Positions 6,407 to 58,169 of a stretch of 64,000 bases of DNA are shown piece after piece. Every line of letters starts with the position of its first letter. Positions within the stretch are counted from its first letter, which is position 1. Under the pieces are notes generated by a model. The model had not been told where the DNA came from, did not search any database, and saw nothing but the letters and a program-made list of their open reading frames with translations. The position numbers and the translations under genes are program-made. The DNA lies in NCBI GenBank assembly GCA_017547385.1, contig JAFYPU010000007.1:1-64000 (forward strand), given 5' to 3'. Source of the stretch: Bacteroidaceae bacterium. GTDB lineage: Bacteria > Bacteroidota > Bacteroidia > Bacteroidales > Bacteroidaceae.

Positions 6407-6542
6407 TTATACCTTAGACTTGATTCTAATATTTCTTTTCAAATAGGAACTGAATGCAAATGAATTCCAGAACATCATGAGCACACTTTCAATAGCAAGT
6501 TCTCTAAAGCGCCACATCCATTTAGACGAGCCGTAATTCTTT
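6407..6542 (-). pseudogene. C-terminal gene remnant, identity uncertain
   Basis: Read on the minus strand, these bases give about 44 codons with protein-like composition (aromatic-rich, containing KWMWRFRELAIES and ending IRIKSKV) before a TAA at 6409-6407. No start exists, and the remnant abuts the aminotransferase remnant. It resembles the tail of a capsule-locus glycosyltransferase or nucleotidyltransferase, but I cannot assign it. The rest of the 6238-6717 gap shows nothing recognisable. Confidence 0.4.
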
Positions 6543-6644
6543 TTGTTTTGTGTCCCAATTGACACAACCAACTGGTATCAAATGCTTCACATATTTTTGA
6601 TCCAATCCGTTCACGCTCATATGCTCTAAAAAGAAATAGACCAT
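6543..6644 (-). pseudogene. Frameshifted 5' remnant of a DegT-type aminotransferase
   Basis: From an ATG at 6644 the minus strand reads M-V-Y-F-F-L-E-H-M-S, then QKYVK, which closely parallels the start of the intact aminotransferase at 4947 (MIYLCLAHMS...QKYVK). After VKE/VKH a frame change restores an AFDTSW-like segment matching AFDTNW of the intact gene. Only about 34 codons survive. It is a relic of an earlier amino-sugar module in this locus. Confidence 0.7.
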
Positions 6645-6717
6645 ATTTCAATCTGATGTGATAAAAGTTCTAATAACTATTAAACGAAGACTTTTTTCAA
6701 TAGTTAAACACAAATTA

Positions 6718-7841: not shown

Positions 7842-8978
7842 TCAAATAAAATTTTTATCAAACTGTTCTTTAATCAACCTATAAAAATCATATACATCCT
7901 TTGACGTTTTTTTTGAATTTAGAAGGTTACGTAAAAATGTTTGCCCATACATAGCCATCTCTTTTGCCTTTGTTGGATTAGCAATAACCTGTTCTATGGC
8001 ATTAGCAATAGATGTAGGGTTGTGTGGTTCAGAAAGATAACCAGTTTTGCCAGGAATAACTATATCAGGGAAACCTCCAACATTAGAAGCAATAGTCGGA
8101 ACTGCCAACATGAGTGATTCTGCAGCACCACCAAGGTTTTCCGAGTGAGAAGGATGTACAACCATATTGAAATCTTGATATAAATCAGGAACATTATTTC
8201 TTGTTCCTAAGAAATGTATATTATTCACCTTTGTTTTTCCATAGGCTATGACTTTTTGCTCATATTTTTCTGCTCCAACCCATGGACCACCGATAATTAC
8301 GAGATGCATATTGGGATATTTTTCTTGTATCATTGATACTGCATCTATTAAATCTTCATGTCCTTTCAACCCCCTTTTTTCACCAAGGTACTTCTTTGGA
8401 GCATACATGTATGCAACCATTCCCACGACAATATCATTATTGGATAGTCCGAGCTCTTTTCGTAGAATCCCTTTTTGGTATTTCCTATTTAAGAGATCAC
8501 CACCATAATAAGTAAGGAATAGACGATTTGAGTCAATTCCACATTCTTGGTATTTCTCTAACGACCATTTACAAGTAGGAATCCAAAAGTCTTTTTTTCT
8601 TTGAGCTGTCCATAAATCAGCGTTCCTATATATCGCATGCTCCAGATGAAGCGGTCCAGGAACTTCAAAAACTCTTGCGACTCTATCCTTTCTAAGTGCA
8701 AGGCGCATTAACAAAGTCGTAATTACAAAATGACTGTGTACGATATCTGGATTAATATCATTGACTATCATACGAATTTGATTAATCGTATAAAAAGCAT
8801 GTTTTATAGAATAATTTAATTCATGAATTATAATTCCCGCATCAATGTATTGTTGTACCAATATCCCATCTACAGGCATAGCGACGTGCACTTCTTCCCC
8901 CATCTGCACCAAATCACGCATCACACGAAAAGCCCATGTTGCACCCGTTGATGTTTTTACTAAATGTAATGACTTCAT
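7842..8978 (-). CDS. Glycosyltransferase, GT4-type (GT-B fold)
   Basis: Retaining glycosyltransferase of the GT4 group, acting at the cytoplasmic membrane on the undecaprenyl-linked repeat unit. The N-terminal half starts with the usual KTSTGATWAF glycine-poor loop. The C-terminal half carries the GT4 donor-binding stretch around residues 275-300 (HSENLGGAAES, then PTIASNVGG), including the EX7E-like pair. Length (378 aa) is typical and the ATG at 8978 fits the first beta-strand. Donor and acceptor sugars cannot be deduced. Confidence 0.88.
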   Translation of the reverse strand: MKSLHLVKTSTGATWAFRVMRDLVQMGEEVHVAMPVDGILVQQYIDAGIIIHELNYSIKHAFYTINQIRMIVNDINPDIVHSHFVITTLLMRLALRKDRVARVFEVPGPLHLEHAIYRNADLWTAQRKKDFWIPTCKWSLEKYQECGIDSNRLFLTYYGGDLLNRKYQKGILRKELGLSNNDIVVGMVAYMYAPKKYLGEKRGLKGHEDLIDAVSMIQEKYPNMHLVIIGGPWVGAEKYEQKVIAYGKTKVNNIHFLGTRNNVPDLYQDFNMVVHPSHSENLGGAAESLMLAVPTIASNVGGFPDIVIPGKTGYLSEPHNPTSIANAIEQVIANPTKAKEMAMYGQTFLRNLLNSKKTSKDVYDFYRLIKEQFDKNFI

Positions 8979-48516: not shown

Positions 48517-48793
48517 AAACCTTTATTGCTGTTAAGCGAGTGCAAAGGTAGGCATATTCACTGTTACAACCAAACTTTTTCTACACTTTTTTGCTATCCC
48601 ACCGTTTTCACACCCCATTTGGAGGATTCTTCCTGCGTCATTCTTTTCTCTGCCGGTGATGTTCGTTTCGGCTTCAGGGCGGCAGAAACAGCAAAAACCT
48701 TATGATTTGCTTGCGCTTGCGCTCTGCTTGCAGCTACAGTTGACAACTTTGTTCGCAGAAGTGAGGTCTGGGTTCGGAAAATGCTTAAACAAG

Positions 48794-48825
48794 TTTGGCT
48801 TTTCACTCGCCTTGCACTAACTTTG
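48794..48825 (+). promoter_or_regulatory. alaS promoter within a dispersed repeat
   Basis: TTTG (48794-48797), 20-bp spacer, TAACTTTG (48818-48825). The whole segment 48779-48830 is the inverted equivalent of the 73-bp repeat core upstream of the thyA transcript at 37747-37800. The preceding bases 48517-48780 contain no believable gene. Confidence 0.85.
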
Positions 48826-48851
48826 CCGACAAAAATTTAATAATATAATAT

Positions 48852-51482
48852 ATGATGACAGCTAACGAAATACGCGAGTCGTATAAGAAATTCTTCGAAT
48901 CGCAAGGACACTTGGTGGTTCCCTCAGCCCCGATGGTAATAAAGGACGACCCCACCTTGATGTTCACAAACGCCGGTATGAATCAATTCAAGGACATTAT
49001 CCTTGGCAACCGCGAGCCAAAGAGTCGCCGCCAAGCGGATTCACAAAAGTGTCTTCGCGTCAGCGGAAAACACAACGACTTGGAGGAAGTGGGCCACGAC
49101 ACTTACCATCACACTATGTTCGAGATGTTGGGCAACTGGAGCTTTGGCGATTATTTCAAGAAAGAAGCTATTAAATGGGCATACCAATACTTGGTTGAGG
49201 TATTGGGCATCAATCCCAAGGATCTCTATGTAACTGTTTTTGAAGGCTCTCCCGAAGAGGGCATCGGCCGCGACGACGAAGCCGCAAGCTATTGGGCAGA
49301 ATACTTCCCTGCCGACCACATCATCAACGGCAACAAGCACGATAATTTCTGGGAGATGGGCGACACCGGTCCCTGCGGTCCGTGTTCGGAAATCCACATC
49401 GACAGTCGCACTGACGAGGAAAAAGCTGCCGTGCCCGGTGCTTCACTTGTCAACAAGGACAATCCGCAAGTCATCGAGATTTGGAACCTTGTGTTCATGC
49501 AATACAACCGCAAGGCCGACGGCTCACTCGAACCGCTCCCCGCGAAGGTCATTGACACAGGCATGGGCTTCGAACGCTTGGTGCGCGTGATGCAAGGCAA
49601 GAACTCCAACTACGACACCGATGTGTTCCAACCCATCATTCGTAAAATAGGAGAACTCTCAGGCTACACCTATGGCAAGGACGAAAAGGTGGACATCGCC
49701 ATGCGTGTCATCGCCGACCACCTGCGTGCCATCGCTTTCAGCATTGCCGATGGTCAACTTCCCGGAAATGCCAAAGCCGGTTACGTCATCCGCCGCATTT
49801 TGCGCCGTGCCGTGCGCTACGCTTACACTTTCCTGGGTCGCCGCGAAGCCTTCATGTATCTGCTCATCCCCACCCTCGTCAGCGAGATGGGCGAAGCCTA
49901 TCCCGAACTCCCGGCACAACAGAAACTCATTTCTCGCGTGATGCAGGAGGAGGAAGAATCGTTCCTCCGCACCTTGGCCACCGGCATTTCGTTGCTCGAA
50001 AGCGTGATTGCCGAGACCAAAGCAGCCGGAAGCACCGTGGTAAATGGCCAGAAAGCCTTCACATTGTTCGACACCTATGGCTTCCCCCTCGACCTCACGC
50101 AGCTCATTTGCAGCGAGCAGGGTCTCACAGTTGACGAAGAAGGTTTCAACACCGAGATGCAGAAGCAGAAAGAACGTGCCCGCAATGCAGCGTCTGTGGA
50201 AACGGGCGACTGGGTGGTACTGGCCGAAGGCGAAACACAGTTCAAGGGTTGGGACTTCACCGAATACACTTGCCGCATTTTGCGCTACCGCAAGATGCAA
50301 CAGAAGAAGCAGACTTACTATGAATTGGTGCTCGACACTACGCCTTTCTACGGCGAAATGGGTGGCCAGGTAGGCGACAAGGGTGTTTTGGTGAACGAAC
50401 AGGAAACTGTGGAAATCTTTGACACAAAACACGAAAACAATCTGCCCATTCACCTGACCAAGCAACTGCCGGCCAATCCCGCAGCCGAATTTATGGCTTG
50501 TGTGGACGTGGAAGCTCGCCGTGCTTGTGAAGCCAACCACACCGCGACCCACTTGCTCGACCAAGCCTTGCGCGAAGTGCTCGGCACGCATGTCGAACAG
50601 AAAGGCTCGCTCGTAACGCCCGAATATCTGCGCTTCGACTTTTCCCACTTCCAGAAGGTAACTCCCGAAGAACTGCGCGAAGTGGCACGCATCGTGAACG
50701 GCCGCATCCGCGAGGACATCGCCCTTCAGGACCATCGCGACATCCCCATCGAGGAAGCCAAGGAATTGGGTGCCATTGCCCTTTTCGGTGAGAAATACGG
50801 CGACCGCGTTCGCGTGGTGCAATTCGGCGAAAGCGTAGAGTTCTGCGGCGGTTGCCATGCTGCCAGCACCGGCCGCATCGGCTTCATCCGCATTCTTTCC
50901 GAAAGCAGTGTAGCCGCCGGCGTACGCCGCATCGAAGCCATCACAGGCCATGCTGCAGAAGAGAGCCTCTATGCACAAGAAGACATGATGCAGATGGTGA
51001 AAGAATTCTTCAACAATTCGAAAGACCTCACCGCAGCCATACGTCGCTTCGTCGAGGAGAACGAAAACCTCAAGAAGCAGGTGGACGGCTTCGTCAAGGA
51101 GCGTGTTCGCAGTCTGCGCGACCGCCTCATCCAGTCGGCCCTCACCGTAGGCGAAGTGAAACTCGTGAAAGGCATCATTCCCGTAGACATTGCTCCCGAA
51201 GCCGTGAAAGATCTCGCTTTCCAAATTGGCAATACGCTCCCCGAAAAGATGGTGTGCGTGCTCGGCAGCCACAATGACGACAAGCCCCTGCTCACCGTCA
51301 TGCTCAGCAAGGACATGGTGGAGACCGGCGGTCTGCATGCCGGCAACATGGTGCGCGAAGCCGCCAAGCTCATCAAGGGCGGCGGCGGTGGTGCTCCCCA
51401 CTTTGCCACAGCCGGTGGTAAGGACTGCAACGGCCTGGACGAAGCTGTCAACAAGGTAGTGGAACTCGCCGGATTGGCATAA
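48852..51482 (+). CDS. alaS: Alanyl-tRNA synthetase
   Basis: Charges tRNA-Ala. The class II catalytic core opens [27 protein letters not shown] with [12 protein letters not shown]. The editing domain has the zinc-type [11 protein letters not shown] and [13 protein letters not shown] motifs, and the C-terminal oligomerisation domain ends in the glycine-rich [15 protein letters not shown]. Length (876 aa) is full. Two adjacent ATGs (48852, 48855) are possible starts. The antisense frame of 716 codons over this gene is a shadow. Confidence 0.97.
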
Positions 51483-51520
51483 CAATTCTGTAAACACACT
51501 TCCAACTGTCTGAAATAGGA

Positions 51521-51551
51521 AAGGCGACCCCCCTCGTAGGTCGCCTTTTTT
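51521..51551 (+). terminator. alaS terminator
   Basis: Stem aaggcgacc/ggtcgcctt (51521-51529 with 51539-51547) followed by six Ts, 39 bp after the stop. Confidence 0.9.
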
Positions 51552-51575
51552 ATGTATTCGGCATATACAAAAATT

Positions 51576-51630
51576 CGCAAGGCGTTCAGAAAATTCTGCA
51601 GTGCTTGTAGAAAATTCTGAACGCCTTGCG
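51576..51630. repeat. 16-bp inverted repeat (CGCCTTGC hairpin family)
   Basis: Arms cgcaaggcgttcagaa (51576-51591) and its complement (51615-51630). The inner bases repeat agaaaattctg, the same module as at 42956-43004. Confidence 0.75.
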
Positions 51631-51667
51631 GATTTTTGCACAGAGCATGCACAAAACAAAAGATAGT

Positions 51668-51700
51668 TTTGTTTAATTTTCAGATAAAAGACTAAATTTG
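51668..51700 (+). promoter_or_regulatory. Promoter of the BACON lipoprotein gene
   Basis: TTTG (51668-51671), 21-bp spacer, TAAATTTG (51693-51700), a strong Bacteroidota match. It gives a leader of about 305 nt before the ATG at 52012. Confidence 0.8.
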
Positions 51701-52011
51701 CGGCAAACCAAGAAAACAAATGCCTATGGTATAAACAAATCGACCCAACAAGACATACAAACTGAGCGTTAGCTTTTGTTTCTGTTACCCGAAATCTGGA
51801 AAATTTCATAGCCTAATAGGAAACTTAAGTCATAACGCCCGCGCTCTATAGGCGTGGGCTTGACTGTATTCCATTAGGCAGGTATTCCAGAACCTCGGGT
51901 AAGGAATGTGAAAGTCGGCTTCGCGCCCTTTTTGTATCCCTCTTCCGCGTTTCATCTACCATTACCCAAGCCTATGAAGCCGAGGCAAAATTTTCTAAAA
52001 CTTTTCATCTT
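51701..52011 (+). ncRNA. Long 5' leader with probable RNA structure
   Basis: No gene; the transcript leader is unusually long. A first hairpin pairs agtca (51828-51832) with tgact (51861-51865) around an 8-bp gcccgcgc/gcgtgggc stem. A second pairs attcc (51868-51872) with ggaat (51903-51907) around ggt/acc. A cis-regulatory element is possible; I do not recognise a named riboswitch. Confidence 0.45.
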
Positions 52012-53811
52012 ATGAGAAACTCATTCCTTAGAAAATGGCTACCCACATTGTTTATGTTTGCCATCCTCGGCATTTTTGCCGCCTGCTCCGAAGACATTTC
52101 AGATGAAATCGCCATAGACCCGAATAAGGAAGTACCCGATCCTGCCGGCACTGTACAACTTTCGATGCGTAATTCCGATAATGGACAAACTGAATTAGAC
52201 CAAATATACATCGAGAATGAGAACTTCCGTGGTCATGAAGGAGCTCACTATTTCACTTCTCTTGGACCGGTAAACGGATTAGGAAATGTGGCTCACATCC
52301 CTACGAGTGGATGGGCTTCGAGTGTTGCCGTCGTCCCCGGACATGGATATGTTGCTTATTCCGCCGGCGATTCTTATTGGGGTATACCCCAAAGATGGTA
52401 TCGCATATATGTAACCGACTATATCGTTAGTACATCCGGCGGCATCATCGGCGCAAAAGTGAAATACCAAGCCCCATTTAAAGGAAGCGACGAAGTCATC
52501 GACCTCGGCATGAAGGAAATAACCTTGAATACGAAGGGCGACACTATCGCCCTGCCTTTCAAAAACAGCGGAGTCATCTTGTTTCATGCCTCCACAGACT
52601 GTCCACAACTCAGCGTAGCGAAGATGTCTACCTACGATCATTCTTTCCTTACCAACGGCATAGTCATCACTTCCGAAGCCAACAACTCAGATACTCCCGT
52701 AGAGGGCACTGTTACACTGACCACACTGCACGGAAAGAAAACTACGCTTAAAGTTATCATTGCCGGCGCGAAGCCTTTTATTGAGTTAGAGCAAGAGAAA
52801 GCGAAAGTTTCTGCAGCACAACAAACCAGCGATATAGCATTTACCACCAACATCTCGGCCGACGAACTCACCATCAGCGGTGCTCCGACTTGGTGTAAAG
52901 CTGAATTAATCAGCAATGAGAAGAATAATGCAGCCCAAAAGAATGCTGTAAAATTCATCGGAAGCCGTGCAATCAACCAAGAAGAAGCCACATTAGCGGC
53001 CTCCGGAGTTTCAAACATAAAGCTCAGATTGACATTCAGCGAGAACGAAAGTCAGAAGGACCGTTCGGCCAATATCACCATCAAGAGCAAGGATGGCAAG
53101 ACATCTGTTCAACTTCCCATCGTGCAAGAAGGTGTTGTCCTCGAAGTCAAGAGAAATAAAATAGGATTTGAAAGATTTCCAGCATATACGATTATCACTC
53201 TCAACACCACGGTCAAGAATTGGGAAGCAGAGAGTTCTGAGGATTGGTGCAGCTTATCCAAATCTGGGAATCAACTCTTTATCGACGTAGAAGCCACTAC
53301 CATCGACCGAACGGCCATCATTAGTTTCAAAGGCTTTGACACCAAAATCACCGTACGCCAAAGCAAATATGCCGTAGGCGATGAATTCAGTGAAGATGGA
53401 GTAGAAGGAATCGTAGGATATATTGGTGACAGTGTGCGTTATGTTTGCAAGAAATTGCCTGAATGTGTTTGGAGTTACAAAAATGAGGGAGTCGGTGCAA
53501 CAAGTACTACAGACGGAGAATATAATATGGCACAAATTAAAAAAATTCCATATTGGGAAGAGGACTATATTGCATTTTTAGCTTGTGATAGACTTAACAA
53601 CAACAAAGTTTCTGGTTGGTATCTACCCGCAGTTGAAGAATTAAGATTGATACGCACATCTCACAGCTATTTTCAAGAAGACTTGTGGTCTTCCACCGAA
53701 TTAGAGGAAAGTGTAAATAGCGCTTACTGTGTTGACCTGCGACGTGGTGGTGCTGTATCCTGGAGATTCAAGAATGAAATGCGTACTATAATAGCCATAC
53801 ACAAATTTTAA
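52012..53811 (+). CDS. Surface lipoprotein with BACON-like domain
   Basis: Signal peptide with a lipobox (GIFAAC, cysteine about residue 25), so it is lipid-anchored, probably on the outer membrane. Ig-like/BACON-type segments follow; the clearest is about 380-455 (LEVKRNKIGFERFPAYTI, WEAESSEDWCSLSKSGNQL). The last 130 residues (YAVGDEF, SGWYLPAVEELRLIR, WSSTELEES) match the DUF1566-type domain of many Bacteroidota surface proteins. The ligand is unknown. The gene stands alone between strong promoter and terminator. Confidence 0.85.
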   Translation: MRNSFLRKWLPTLFMFAILGIFAACSEDISDEIAIDPNKEVPDPAGTVQLSMRNSDNGQTELDQIYIENENFRGHEGAHYFTSLGPVNGLGNVAHIPTSGWASSVAVVPGHGYVAYSAGDSYWGIPQRWYRIYVTDYIVSTSGGIIGAKVKYQAPFKGSDEVIDLGMKEITLNTKGDTIALPFKNSGVILFHASTDCPQLSVAKMSTYDHSFLTNGIVITSEANNSDTPVEGTVTLTTLHGKKTTLKVIIAGAKPFIELEQEKAKVSAAQQTSDIAFTTNISADELTISGAPTWCKAELISNEKNNAAQKNAVKFIGSRAINQEEATLAASGVSNIKLRLTFSENESQKDRSANITIKSKDGKTSVQLPIVQEGVVLEVKRNKIGFERFPAYTIITLNTTVKNWEAESSEDWCSLSKSGNQLFIDVEATTIDRTAIISFKGFDTKITVRQSKYAVGDEFSEDGVEGIVGYIGDSVRYVCKKLPECVWSYKNEGVGATSTTDGEYNMAQIKKIPYWEEDYIAFLACDRLNNNKVSGWYLPAVEELRLIRTSHSYFQEDLWSSTELEESVNSAYCVDLRRGGAVSWRFKNEMRTIIAIHKF

Positions 53812-53871
53812 ATTCCTCAAGAGAATTGTGAGAAGTTGAAAAATACAGTCCCCAACCATCATCATCCATTC

Positions 53872-53901
53872 AGGCGACCCTCGCGAGGGTCGCCTTTTTA
53901 T
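53872..53901 (+). terminator. Terminator of the BACON lipoprotein gene
   Basis: Perfect palindrome aggcgaccctcgcgagggtc plus gcct (53872-53895) followed by five Ts. Confidence 0.9.
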
Positions 53902-53950
53902 GTTCTCAAAGCATTTTCATTCTTCGCAAGGCACTTCACAAACAATCACA

Positions 53951-54046
53951 AGGCTTTCAACCAAATTCTGAAAGCCTCGCAGCTAAACTGGCAAGGCCTG
54001 CCAGAAAATTGGCAAGCCGTGCCAAAAAAGTGGCAGGCCTTGCCAG
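53951..54046. repeat. Cluster of hairpin repeats
   Basis: First aggctttca/tgaaagcct (53951-53959 with 53969-53977), then 16-bp arms ctggcaaggcctgcca (53988-54003) with 54031-54046, with a third tggca/tgcca hairpin between them. It belongs to the same A/T-flanked GC-hairpin style as 42956-43004 and 51576-51630. No gene is visible in 53896-54341. Confidence 0.65.
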
Positions 54047-54117
54047 TTTTGCTGAAATGGGAGTAAAAAGTTAACGTCGGGCTACGAAATCTTTCGTTAT
54101 TGAGCTAATGAATTTCT

Positions 54118-54161
54118 CCGGCTTACCGCTTGCGAAAAACTGCGATGCGATGACTCACGCC
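54118..54161. repeat. Left 44-bp direct repeat flanking the R-M genes
   Basis: 43 of 44 bases match 56408-56451. The sequence equals the last codons and stop of the GH10-like gene, whose intact end is the right copy. One difference (a for g at 54139) would change Ala to Val in that reading. Offset between copies is 2290 bp. Confidence 0.93.
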
Positions 54162-54341
54162 TCGCAGCAAAAGTAATTTCCCCATAATCGGTAGTATTAA
54201 TGTAAACCTGCCGGTCATAATAACCAGCGATGGCATTTTGTCGCAAAAAGGTGCAACGAAGCCGCTACAAAACGAACGCGACGCAAATTGTACCCTGCAA
54301 ATGCCAAAAGTCCTGTTATTTTCACTAATTTTACAGGCGCG

Positions 54342-55556
54342 ATGAATGCCAAGACATTAAAAATAGTTCCGAAGATAAAATATGGCGACGAGCGACTTGC
54401 TTTGCTCTCCCACTATATGCACACTCGCGACATGGTCGCAGGAGATTGCTACCGAAACGAAGCGGAAGCGTTATTGTGCAAGGGGCAACCCATGACGGAC
54501 GCGGAAGTATCTATTGCCTGCGAACCCGTGGTGCAGTATAACCTTTTTCCCGAATTTTACTCCGTGCCGTTTCCGCCGTCGCTGGAACAGTCTGTACCAT
54601 TCATTGACCTTTTTGCCGGTATTGGCGGCATACGCCTACCGTTTGACGAATTAGGCTACAACTGCGTATTCACTTCCGAATGGGACGCGAAAGCCTGCCA
54701 AACATACTTCGCCAACTTTGGTATATATCCCTTTGGCGACATCACAAAGATACCCGCCGAGCGTATCCCTGCTCACAAACTGCTGCTAGCAGGCTTCCCG
54801 TGTCAGGCGTTCTCAATTATGGGCAAGATGAAAGGATTTGAAGACACGCGTGGCACAATGTTTTTTGAGATCGAGCGCATATTGAAGCACCACTGCCCGC
54901 CCTACATACTGCTTGAAAACGTAAAGCAACTCGTAGGACACGACGGCGGACGTACTTTCAAAGTCATCCTTGAGCACTTGGATGCTCTGGGTTATTTCGT
55001 GAAGTGGAAAGTGCTCAACGCGCTTGATTTCGGACTGCCGCAGAAGCGTGAGCGTGTCATCATCGTGGGCTTTACCGACAAGGCCGACTACGAGCGGTTC
55101 AACTTTGATTTCACGCCACAAAAGCACGACCTTGCCGCTATCCTTGAAGACGAAGCAAACATTGACAAGACGCTTTACGCTTCCGACCACATCATTGCGC
55201 GGCGCAGAGAGCAGACATTAGGCAAGAAAGTGTTTTACCCCTCCATTTGGCATGAGAATAAGGCTGGCAATGTGTCCGTACTTGACTATTCTTGTGCATT
55301 GCGAACGGGGGCTTCATATAACTACCTGCTTGTGAACGGCGTGCGCCGACCCACATCCCGTGAACTCCTGCGCCTGCAAGGTTTCCCCGAAGAGTTCAGA
55401 ATTACAGTTACCCACCAAGACATACGCCGACAAACGGGAAACTCCGTGGCTGTTCCGATGATACGAATGGTGGCACGCAAGATAGACAACATCATAAAAA
55501 GCAAAGAAAATGAAGCATCCACGTTTACGCGACTCAAAACGGCTCCTTACGCTTGA
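54342..55556 (+). CDS. DNA (cytosine-5) methyltransferase, type II
   Basis: Modification enzyme of a restriction-modification system. Motifs in order: I PFIDLFAGIGGIR, IV GFPCQAFS with the catalytic cysteine, VI LLENV, VIII LPQKRERV, X RRQTGNSVAVP. About 90 residues precede motif I. A TTG at 54288 would add 18 codons; the ATG at 54342 is preferred. Length 404 aa. It overlaps the endonuclease gene by 47 bp. The target site cannot be read from the sequence. Confidence 0.92.
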   Translation: MNAKTLKIVPKIKYGDERLALLSHYMHTRDMVAGDCYRNEAEALLCKGQPMTDAEVSIACEPVVQYNLFPEFYSVPFPPSLEQSVPFIDLFAGIGGIRLPFDELGYNCVFTSEWDAKACQTYFANFGIYPFGDITKIPAERIPAHKLLLAGFPCQAFSIMGKMKGFEDTRGTMFFEIERILKHHCPPYILLENVKQLVGHDGGRTFKVILEHLDALGYFVKWKVLNALDFGLPQKRERVIIVGFTDKADYERFNFDFTPQKHDLAAILEDEANIDKTLYASDHIIARRREQTLGKKVFYPSIWHENKAGNVSVLDYSCALRTGASYNYLLVNGVRRPTSRELLRLQGFPEEFRITVTHQDIRRQTGNSVAVPMIRMVARKIDNIIKSKENEASTFTRLKTAPYA

Positions 55557-56244
55557 ACCATACGCATTGAACGAAATACCCGAAAGCATCATCCGCAAAG
55601 TAGGACGCAGACTTGTCTATATGCTCTGTATCGGTCGCACCGACCTAACGGGCGACGATTGGGGTAACGTCTTTGCTGATGCCGTTGGCGGCAAACACTT
55701 GCAGTCGCCTGTAGGTATTGCCGATGTTACTTTTGAGAAAATGGCTTGGTCAATGAAGACCGTCAAGAAGACCAACCCTCACCAAGACGGCACAGCACTA
55801 CGACTCATCAGCGGACGTTGCTCGCCCGACTATTCCTATGGCATCACCGACCCGCACGAGGACATACAGAAAACGGGGCGTGCCGTGCTGAATATCTGGA
55901 ATGAGCGCGTAAACATCGCCTACGACCACTTCAACCCCGTGCGCACCTCTGTGCTTGTGCGCTCTAATGACCTCTTGACCTACACGCTCTTCGAAGAAGA
56001 GAACCACCGATACACCACCAATGCTTATCATTGGGAAGAGAACCGCAATGGCAACCTAATTGGTGTAGACATTGAGACGGGCGAAACGCGTTTCACTTGG
56101 CAACCCCATGGCTCACAATTCACCATCCATACGCGCACACCGAAAAACGCCGTCAAGTTCCGCATACGCCGGCCGCCCGTACTGAGTATGGAAGCCACGC
56201 TGAAACAGATAAACTTCAGCGAGGATTGGATAGAGATTCTCTAA
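55510..56244 (+). CDS. Probable type II restriction endonuclease
   Basis: 244-aa protein translated from a start inside the methyltransferase gene, which couples both. A PD-(D/E)XK-like core is visible: GIADVTFEKMAWSMKTVKK (about 73-91), in which D76 and a SMK triad could bind metal. The C-terminal half has beta-type segments (HGSQFTIHTRTPKNAVKFRI). I do not recognise the specificity family. The partner methyltransferase and the terminator right after it support the role. Confidence 0.75.
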   Translation: MKHPRLRDSKRLLTLEPYALNEIPESIIRKVGRRLVYMLCIGRTDLTGDDWGNVFADAVGGKHLQSPVGIADVTFEKMAWSMKTVKKTNPHQDGTALRLISGRCSPDYSYGITDPHEDIQKTGRAVLNIWNERVNIAYDHFNPVRTSVLVRSNDLLTYTLFEEENHRYTTNAYHWEENRNGNLIGVDIETGETRFTWQPHGSQFTIHTRTPKNAVKFRIRRPPVLSMEATLKQINFSEDWIEIL

Positions 56245-56270
56245 TAGCAACGCACATATATTATATATAA

Positions 56271-56301
56271 AGGCAGCACTTGCGGAAGTGCTGCCTTTTT
56301 C
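56271..56301 (+). terminator. Terminator of the R-M genes
   Basis: Stem ggcagcact/agtgctgcc (56272-56280 with 56287-56295) followed by five Ts. Confidence 0.85.
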
Positions 56302-56407
56302 GTCTGCAACAAAAGATAAAGGACGATAAAGCAAGGTAAGAGTAAACAGGAATTAAAAAGCTGCACATGGCCGCTAATTCTTTCACTATCGAATTTCACA
56401 TTGTTTA

Positions 56408-56451
56408 CCGGCTTACCGCTTGCGAAAAGCTGCGATGCGATGACTCACGCC
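56408..56451. repeat. Right 44-bp direct repeat flanking the R-M genes
   Basis: Forms the 3' end of the GH10-like gene (its stop is at 56415-56413). See the left copy at 54118-54161. The cassette between the copies has no integrase or transposase. Confidence 0.93.
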
Positions 56452-58143
56452 ACGACGCCCGAGGGTGCGCACCACATAGAAACCGGGAGCCAAATGCCAC
56501 ACTGAAAGCGCAGTCTGCATGGGGCAGGTCATCACATGGCGTTCCTGCACATCGGTGATGAGCAGATAATCGGCATCGGCCGCTGTCTCGGGCAGCCGGA
56601 AGGTGTCTGCCACTTCGGGATATTGCTCCGCAAGCAATGTAGCCGCTATGGTGGTCCATTGCGGAGCGCTTTCGTTGCCATAAGCATCGACAGCCGTAAC
56701 GGCATAAGGTGCATGAAGCAATGCGGGAAGTGCCGGTGCATAGCGGTATTCGGTGGATGTAACGCGCTCTGCCACTGCAGTCATGCCGGAAGTGCTGTCA
56801 GCAATATGTTCGCTGCGACGATAAATGTTGTAATACACCGGCGTATCTTCATTGTCGCGAGCCGCTGTCCAGCGCAAGGTCAAAGAACGTTCTTCCAAGC
56901 ACAACGATAGTTGGGGAGCCGTGGGAGCAATGCTGTCTCTCCACGTCATGGGCGGCACACGCGAGGGGAGCGCATAGAAATCTTCAGCCACAAAATCGTA
57001 AAGTCCTTTCACATTGTCCGTGAGGAAGCGGCTGCGGAAGAAAGCTTGGCCGCCGATGCCCGTGGCACGGACAAAGTTGAGCTGACGTTGCACCACAGAG
57101 AGCGGCCAGTTCTTTTCGTTCTTGTGCAAGAAGTAGATGCCCAGCCCCGGCACCACGGGCTTTCCTGCAGAACGCTCCTGCCAATCGAGCACAAAGGGAT
57201 AGAAATGCTTGCCATCGAAATACATCATCGGGAAGAGCATGTCCATCAGCCCGCTCTGCAACCAGCCGGCGGCATCCTGGTGCACGGCATCACGGGCGTT
57301 CCATCCATAACTGCTCTGACGCGGTGTGTCGGCATATTTTCCCACAGGCGAACAGCTCAACTTCACCCAGGGACGCACGGCACGCACAGCCTCGCCAATG
57401 GCACGTACGCAGCGAGTAACATTGTCGCGTCGCCATTCGGCCTTGTTGCGACCGGCACCATATTTGCGGTATGTCTTAGTGTCGTTAAAGGGGATTCCGC
57501 TTTCGGGATAGCGGATGTAATCCAGATGAATGCCGTCCACATCATATCGCTCCACAATTTCACGACAGATGGAGGCAATGTAGGCAGCTGTGCCCGGCAC
57601 ACCGGGATCCATCATCCATTGGTCGCCGCAGCGCTGACAGAGTTCGGGATGCTGACGCGGCAGCGAGCGATTGCCCAAACGCTTCTCCACGTTCACTTTG
57701 CAAATAGGGAAAGCCACCACCCAGGCATGCAGTTCCATGCCGCGTTTGTGGCATTCCTCCACAGCGAAGGCCAACGGGTCGTAGGCCGGTGCCACGCCTG
57801 GTGTTCCTGTGAAAGCACCGTCCCAAGGCTCGATGGCAGACGGATAAGCCGTAGTGGAACGGATGCGAGCCTGGAAGAGCACGGTGTTGACCCCAGCGCG
57901 TTGCAAATCATCGAGGATGGAACACAGCTCAGCTTTCTGCCGTTGTGCCCCCTCCGCTCCCGTTTGCGGCTTTGTAGGCCAATCCAATCCACTGAGTGTG
58001 GTGAGCCAGACGGCACGCACTTCATAACGTGGAGCTTCGGAAAGGAAAATCGGGGTAGCACAGAAAGAAGTTTGTGCTCGCACCACGAAACAACCGAGAG
58101 ACAACAAGAGAACGAAAAAAAGTCGATGGAAAAGATATTTCAT
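56413..58143 (-). CDS. GH10-like glycosyl hydrolase (DUF187/PF02638 type), second copy
   Basis: Paralogue of the protein at 43190-44689. It has an N-terminal signal (FHRLFFVLLLSLGCFVVRAQ), then EVRAVWLTTLSGLDWP, LFQARIRSTTAYPS, MELHAWVVAFP, DVDGIHLDYIRYP and LPSRVPPMTW. Ig-like and C-terminal sorting-like segments (FYVVRTLGRRGVSH) extend it to 576 aa. The ATG at 58143 was chosen over a TTG at 58164. It is the last gene of a symporter-TPR-hydrolase operon, and its 3' end was duplicated by the R-M insertion. Confidence 0.88.
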   Translation of the reverse strand: MKYLFHRLFFVLLLSLGCFVVRAQTSFCATPIFLSEAPRYEVRAVWLTTLSGLDWPTKPQTGAEGAQRQKAELCSILDDLQRAGVNTVLFQARIRSTTAYPSAIEPWDGAFTGTPGVAPAYDPLAFAVEECHKRGMELHAWVVAFPICKVNVEKRLGNRSLPRQHPELCQRCGDQWMMDPGVPGTAAYIASICREIVERYDVDGIHLDYIRYPESGIPFNDTKTYRKYGAGRNKAEWRRDNVTRCVRAIGEAVRAVRPWVKLSCSPVGKYADTPRQSSYGWNARDAVHQDAAGWLQSGLMDMLFPMMYFDGKHFYPFVLDWQERSAGKPVVPGLGIYFLHKNEKNWPLSVVQRQLNFVRATGIGGQAFFRSRFLTDNVKGLYDFVAEDFYALPSRVPPMTWRDSIAPTAPQLSLCLEERSLTLRWTAARDNEDTPVYYNIYRRSEHIADSTSGMTAVAERVTSTEYRYAPALPALLHAPYAVTAVDAYGNESAPQWTTIAATLLAEQYPEVADTFRLPETAADADYLLITDVQERHVMTCPMQTALSVWHLAPGFYVVRTLGRRGVSHRIAAFRKR

Positions 58144-58169
58144 AAGACACTGAGTGATGTACAATGATT

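Follow-up and report, generated by a model that had tools for sequence, protein, structure and literature searches.

We conclude that a putative Type II restriction–modification (R-M) cassette was probably acquired by insertion with long target duplication at the 3′ end of a glycosyl hydrolase-like 10 (GHL10) gene, after the lineage studied here had split from that of a related genome, G008. The window, by which we mean the whole 64-kb stretch of DNA analyzed, is part of a draft genome of 34 contigs that is 86.5% complete. A previous reading of the sequence alone had proposed this mode of R-M gene insertion, and the proposal is now supported by a cassette-free site with a single copy of the repeat in G008 and by an independent case in a pair of sister species, G748 and G839.

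Structure of the repeat and the insert

Two stretches of the window, 54118-54161 and 56408-56451, form a direct repeat with a start-to-start distance of 2290 bp. Recomputation gave 43 identical positions out of 44, as the sequence-only reading had stated, and the likeness of the two copies extends beyond the 44 bp (45/47). When the 64 kb were scanned for direct repeats of at least 40 bp with copies at least 88% alike and 700-9000 bp apart, this pair was the only one found, and therefore we do not regard it as a product of chance. The other repeats longer than 30 bp all lie at 27-38 kb, with starts within 300 bp of one another.

The right copy (56408-56451) consists of the last 12 codons and the stop codon of a gene on the minus strand (56413-58164) together with 5 nt beyond the stop. 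That this copy is the coding end of the neighboring gene, and that the gene was left whole by the duplication, had been noted before and holds true; its assignment as GH10-like has to be corrected to GHL10 (Pfam PF02638, E 4.7e-52). The left copy (54118-54161) is an orphan gene end and carries the only private change, an A for a G at position 22. It is preceded by an intergenic flank (53815-54117) in which the alignment with the corresponding spacer of G008 reaches to about 54066. Just left of the orphan copy lies a GC-rich palindrome of the TGGCAAGGCCTGCCA type (53980-54054); similar stretches occur at no fewer than about 29 other places in the same genome, and at the same spot G008 has a palindrome of a different family which is 93% alike to window positions 51567-51638.

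The insert between the copies (54162-56407, 2246 bp) holds one C5-cytosine DNA methyltransferase gene (M, 54342-55556, plus strand), one endonuclease candidate gene (R, 55510-56244, plus strand), which overlaps M by 47 bp, and 3′ of R a terminator-like hairpin with a T run, read from the sequence on the plus strand (56269-56300, self-complementary match 56269-56298). Six further open reading frames of at least 60 aa all overlap the two genes, either out of frame with them or on the opposite strand, so that the cassette content described earlier is confirmed. Inspection of the open reading frames between 54162 and 56407 showed no recombinase gene, neither an integrase nor a transposase, again in line with the previous description, and none of the 15 listed inverted-repeat pairs of at least 16 nt joins both ends of the insert.

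The methyltransferase and the endonuclease candidate

M encodes 404 aa when read from the ATG at 54342 (its frame is open from the TTG at 54288 on) and is recognized by PF00145 (E 1e-86) and TIGR00675. Its N terminus is extended by about 84 aa (window 54342-54600): alignments to methyltransferases adjoining related R genes start at residues 51-89, and distant plasmid methyltransferases align over the extension.

The product of R (244 aa) on its own has no sequence match in Pfam, NCBIfam, PADLOC or the PDB; used together with its relatives as a family it has none in Pfam, PADLOC or the PDB sequences, and no solved restriction enzyme matches it by sequence. Across 12 aligned members of the family the residues D72, W80 and K83 are invariant and would suit a variant of a PD-(D/E)XK-like site. 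A C5 methyltransferase gene adjoins R in all 25 loci examined, i.e., in the window and in 24 others. Taken together with the DNA methyltransferase signature of M, the constant neighborhood is compatible with a Type II R-M cassette in which R would cut what M protects. As for the target, a GCGC-type site is no more than a guess.

Within the 58 genomes of the genus (19 of which are at least 90% complete) R was found in its own genome alone. Counted with this genome it occurs in 4 of 393 genomes of the order, 7 of 395 of the phylum and 7 of 395 of the class, and its distribution is therefore sporadic. Six relatives other than the window come from the phylum set, one being a broken fragment, and six from the class set, one of which also belongs to the phylum set; in a Phocaeicola MAG the R gene is split over two frames. 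Ten further loci come from IMG/VR, and a phage record (MT836739.1, L112) has R and M adjacent to each other. Searches of plasmids gave no match to R, nor did a search of IMG/VR with R as a single-sequence query.

Flanking direct repeats of at least 40 bp were found in 3 of 25 R-family loci, the window (44 bp), L086 (180 bp) and L066 (76 bp), a lower bound since in several loci the flank to one side is shorter than 1.3 kb. This tally omits the broken fragment (L079) and the phage record, includes several IMG/VR loci that are nearly alike and does not count a 20-nt palindrome pair in L106. Thus a long flanking repeat appears to be a minority outcome for cassettes of this family.

Comparison with a cassette-free relative

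A first search covered 61 genomes, the window's own included; judged by the GHL10 protein, G008 is the closest (83% amino acid identity for the gene at the same place). The G008 locus (L040) retains alaS, a BACON-domain gene and the GHL10 gene as neighbors, has no cassette and possesses a single copy of the repeat, which is identical to the right copy of the window at 40 of 44 positions. An empty site with one copy, named by the sequence-only reading as an observation that would support insertion, is therefore present in a relative, although in one relative only and one of a different species. A 38-nt version of the repeat, searched with up to three mismatches, occurs twice in the window's genome (both times at this locus) and once in G008, and it is missing from the remaining 56 genomes of the genus. 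The two findings that had been named as contrary to an insertion, R-M genes at the same place in all relatives and both repeat copies without R-M genes, were not seen among the 58 genus genomes. In the window the 3′ half of the BACON-domain gene (52012-53811) is more diverged from G008 (about 70% identity in 53215-53643) than the stretch 48774-52784 (90%).

Five sites of the 44 bp are variable between the window and G008. Four of them separate G008 from the two window copies, which share one base; at the fifth only the orphan copy stands apart, the right copy having the base of G008. The sequence therefore suggests, most simply, that the repeat was duplicated from the gene end of its own lineage and was not imported from a distant donor; a donor of the same lineage is possible.

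The spacers give a less clear picture. The score of the whole left flank (53815-54117) against the G008 spacer was reached by 2 of 500 shuffled sequences, that of the last 63 nt of this flank by 260 of 500 and that of the stretch 56245-56407 inside the cassette by 354 of 500; the aligned part of the left flank and the G008 spacer hold different palindromic repeats. At the non-coding edge of the repeat the G008 spacer is too diverged for an exact placement. With the best of three offsets, 17 of the 29 nt that adjoin the right copy on its inner side are identical to the G008 spacer, versus 10 for the left flank, and when extension was anchored at the repeat the score inside the right copy was equalled by 8 of 300 shuffles versus 87 of 300 for the left flank. 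A clean duplication predicts the reverse, and we therefore count this observation against it.

Further cassettes between long direct repeats

G748 belongs to another family of the same phylum and carries a cassette of the R family (L086) between 180-bp copies (6501-6680 and 8506-8685) which are identical at 175 of 180 positions and enclose an insert of 1825 bp. Of the 180 bp, 65 nt are the start of a vsr gene (PF03852) and 115 bp the sequence upstream of it, and the full vsr copy follows the right repeat. In the sister species G839 (L096) we found the exact empty site: the 180 bp are present once, L086 2029-6680 and 8506-9277 align to L096 2-4645 and 4466-5235, and the flanks are continuous at 93-95% identity, with exact edges at the target. 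Of the 100 nt adjoining the repeat on each side 89 (left) and 98 (right) are identical between the two species, and no relative of R lies in the 14 kb examined of the G839 locus. Sixteen sites are variable here, and at 11 of them the two G748 copies share a base that G839 does not have. In a comparison of G748 with G840 there is a hint like that in the window, namely a weak likeness between the stretch on the inner side of the right copy and the spacer of the relative.

A genome of the window's own genus, G067, has an EcoRII-type endonuclease gene and a C5 methyltransferase gene (L119, 4738-7595) between 80-bp copies, identical at 76 of 80 positions, of the end of a radical-SAM gene. Both cassette genes are absent from G035 and G012 within the 4.2 kb examined. 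The radical-SAM gene ends of these two genomes differ from either G067 copy at 23-25 of 80 positions and their spacers cannot be aligned with G067, so this case comes without an exact empty site. The non-coding edge of the repeat lies 6 nt past the stop codon in G067 and 5 nt past it in the window.

On a phage contig (L066, 3334-6534) the R-M pair is found along with other small phage genes between copies identical at 76 of 76 positions, which span the apparent start of a neighboring gene; R is shortened there. Neither an empty site nor another contig carrying this repeat was found. L066 and three phage contigs have in common a stretch of about 1.55 kb, 75-77% alike, which hardly extends past the two genes.

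Long repeats in themselves are not rarer elsewhere. In 261.6 kb from 16 GHL10 loci of relatives there are six repeat pairs of at least 40 bp spaced 1.5-6 kb apart, and in 800 kb (a contiguous 400 kb from each of two genus genomes) there are 11, none of which pairs the 3′ end of a gene with an orphan copy. We also scanned 40 methyltransferase stretches of the genus (482 kb), which hold 48 of 56 methyltransferase places, those left out being the window's own and seven that are weaker or at contig ends. Five stretches have long bracketing repeats, and of these only L119 was kept. The evidence for insertion rests on the empty sites and on exact bracketing.

Among the four stretches set aside, L121 (4678-7611, in G080) has 85-bp repeats and adjoins a DDE transposase gene; it contains a C5 methyltransferase gene, an open reading frame without Pfam match and a gene for an HTH regulator. 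In L129, L143 and L152 the repeats look dispersed or AT-rich by eye, although the locus itself holds just two to three copies. One of the six pairs from the GHL10 loci encloses a Fic-domain gene between 354-bp copies of a neighboring gene end (L051, 1588-3722, in G032). We do not count it as a further case, because G062 has two tandem copies of that gene and the orphan may thus be the remnant of a paralogue. Unless this is so, R-M genes may not be the only ones to show the duplication pattern.

Origin of the duplication

A repeat on either side of the insert (43/44), an insert-free relative with a single copy (G008, and exactly so in G839), sequence of the host lineage in both copies (4 of 5 and 11 of 16 sites) and a length and target that vary (44, 180 and 80 bp, each at a different and unrelated gene) are what insertion with long target duplication should leave behind, and all of these were found. 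The 3′ end of the GHL10 gene would have been the point of entry, the cassette being joined to two points of the target 44 bp apart, presumably without a recombinase of its own, and 44 bp of host sequence would thereby have come to lie on either side of the insert and the gene would have stayed whole. The repeat may in addition permit loss or regain of the cassette by recombination, by analogy with HpyAII.

The resemblance of the right-copy interior (20-30 nt) to the spacers of relatives, which exceeds that of the left flank, and the position of the repeat edges so close behind the stop codon in both the window and G067 would both be accounted for if donor DNA of the same lineage, with the cassette beside the same gene end, had paired there by homologous recombination on one side. 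The non-coding edge would then be the place where coding homology stops, and the other end of the cassette would have been joined illegitimately, or a circle would have integrated by a single crossover. Such an event requires a donor with the cassette at the same gene, however, and R did not turn up in any of the 57 other genus genomes; moreover, the coincidence with the stop codon rests on two cases, and a clean duplication fits the empty site and the two flanks of the G748 case. We therefore consider one-sided recombination unlikely. It is also doubtful, and slightly more so, that in this phylum, presumably Bacteroidota, compact cassettes as unlike as those of the R family and the EcoRII-type insert with no recombinase of their own along a route that is steered to gene ends: recombination would start just past the stop codon, where coding homology runs out, restoring the gene and leaving its end behind as an orphan.

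Gene 3′ ends are common integration targets. The sequence-only reading had accordingly offered site-specific integration as the alternative, in which a recombinase would act in trans and the 44 bp would represent attL and attR, and the restored gene is indeed what such elements leave. We rate this explanation as very unlikely, since the insert lacks an integrase, the 44-, 180- and 80-bp repeats at unrelated genes are dissimilar by eye, IMG/VR contains no exact match to a 20-nt core and both copies hold the alleles of their own lineage; the 180-bp duplication of G748 with its exact empty site in G839 likewise favors a long duplication of variable length. Least probable of all is an ancestral cassette lost in G008. 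The 44-bp repeat could permit such a deletion, and deletion and restoration through 80-bp repeats is described for HpyAII of H. pylori (PMC7494987), but a search of the other 57 genus genomes, many of them incomplete, did not reveal R.

Relation to known systems

By sequence, the closest solved structure to M is M.HhaI (E 2.9e-61). M is also 52.5% identical to a methyltransferase of an Acinetobacter plasmid whose neighbor is annotated as HaeII family, whereas R together with three relatives gives no match to the Pfam HaeII family at E values up to 1.

Insertion with long target duplication of R-M genes was reportedly described for H. pylori by Nobusato et al. in 2000. According to four papers (PMC1643837, PMC3874152, PMC3031569, PMC4978471), R-M genes of this species lie between direct repeats of the order of 100 bp copied from the target, as judged by comparison of related genomes, and from these papers the question of R-M mobility without a transposase appears to have been raised mainly by H. 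pylori genome comparisons. Among openly licensed PMC papers on long target duplication and R-M genes none deals with Bacteroidota judging by the titles, the only match for target duplication of R-M genes in this group being a paper on HpyAV of H. pylori, and no report of repeats flanking R-M genes in Bacteroides was found among such papers.

The HpyAII system and the cassette of the window are alike in that R-M genes lie between direct repeats; deletion and restoration through the repeats are reported there, whereas the window cassette is known from its sequence. The junctions defined here allow tests both of the joining mechanism and of repeat-mediated loss. With the H. pylori duplications, as depicted in the papers mentioned, the window has in common R-M genes flanked by direct repeats derived from the target and recognized by genome comparison; it differs from them in the bacterial group, in that species and not strains were compared, in repeat lengths of 44, 80 and 180 bp and in an endonuclease family that the libraries do not recognize. 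The mode itself is thus already described for R-M genes, and what is added here are cases in a different bacterial group, the second of them exact, with an empty site at 93-95% identity (G748/G839), and the endonuclease family missed by the libraries.
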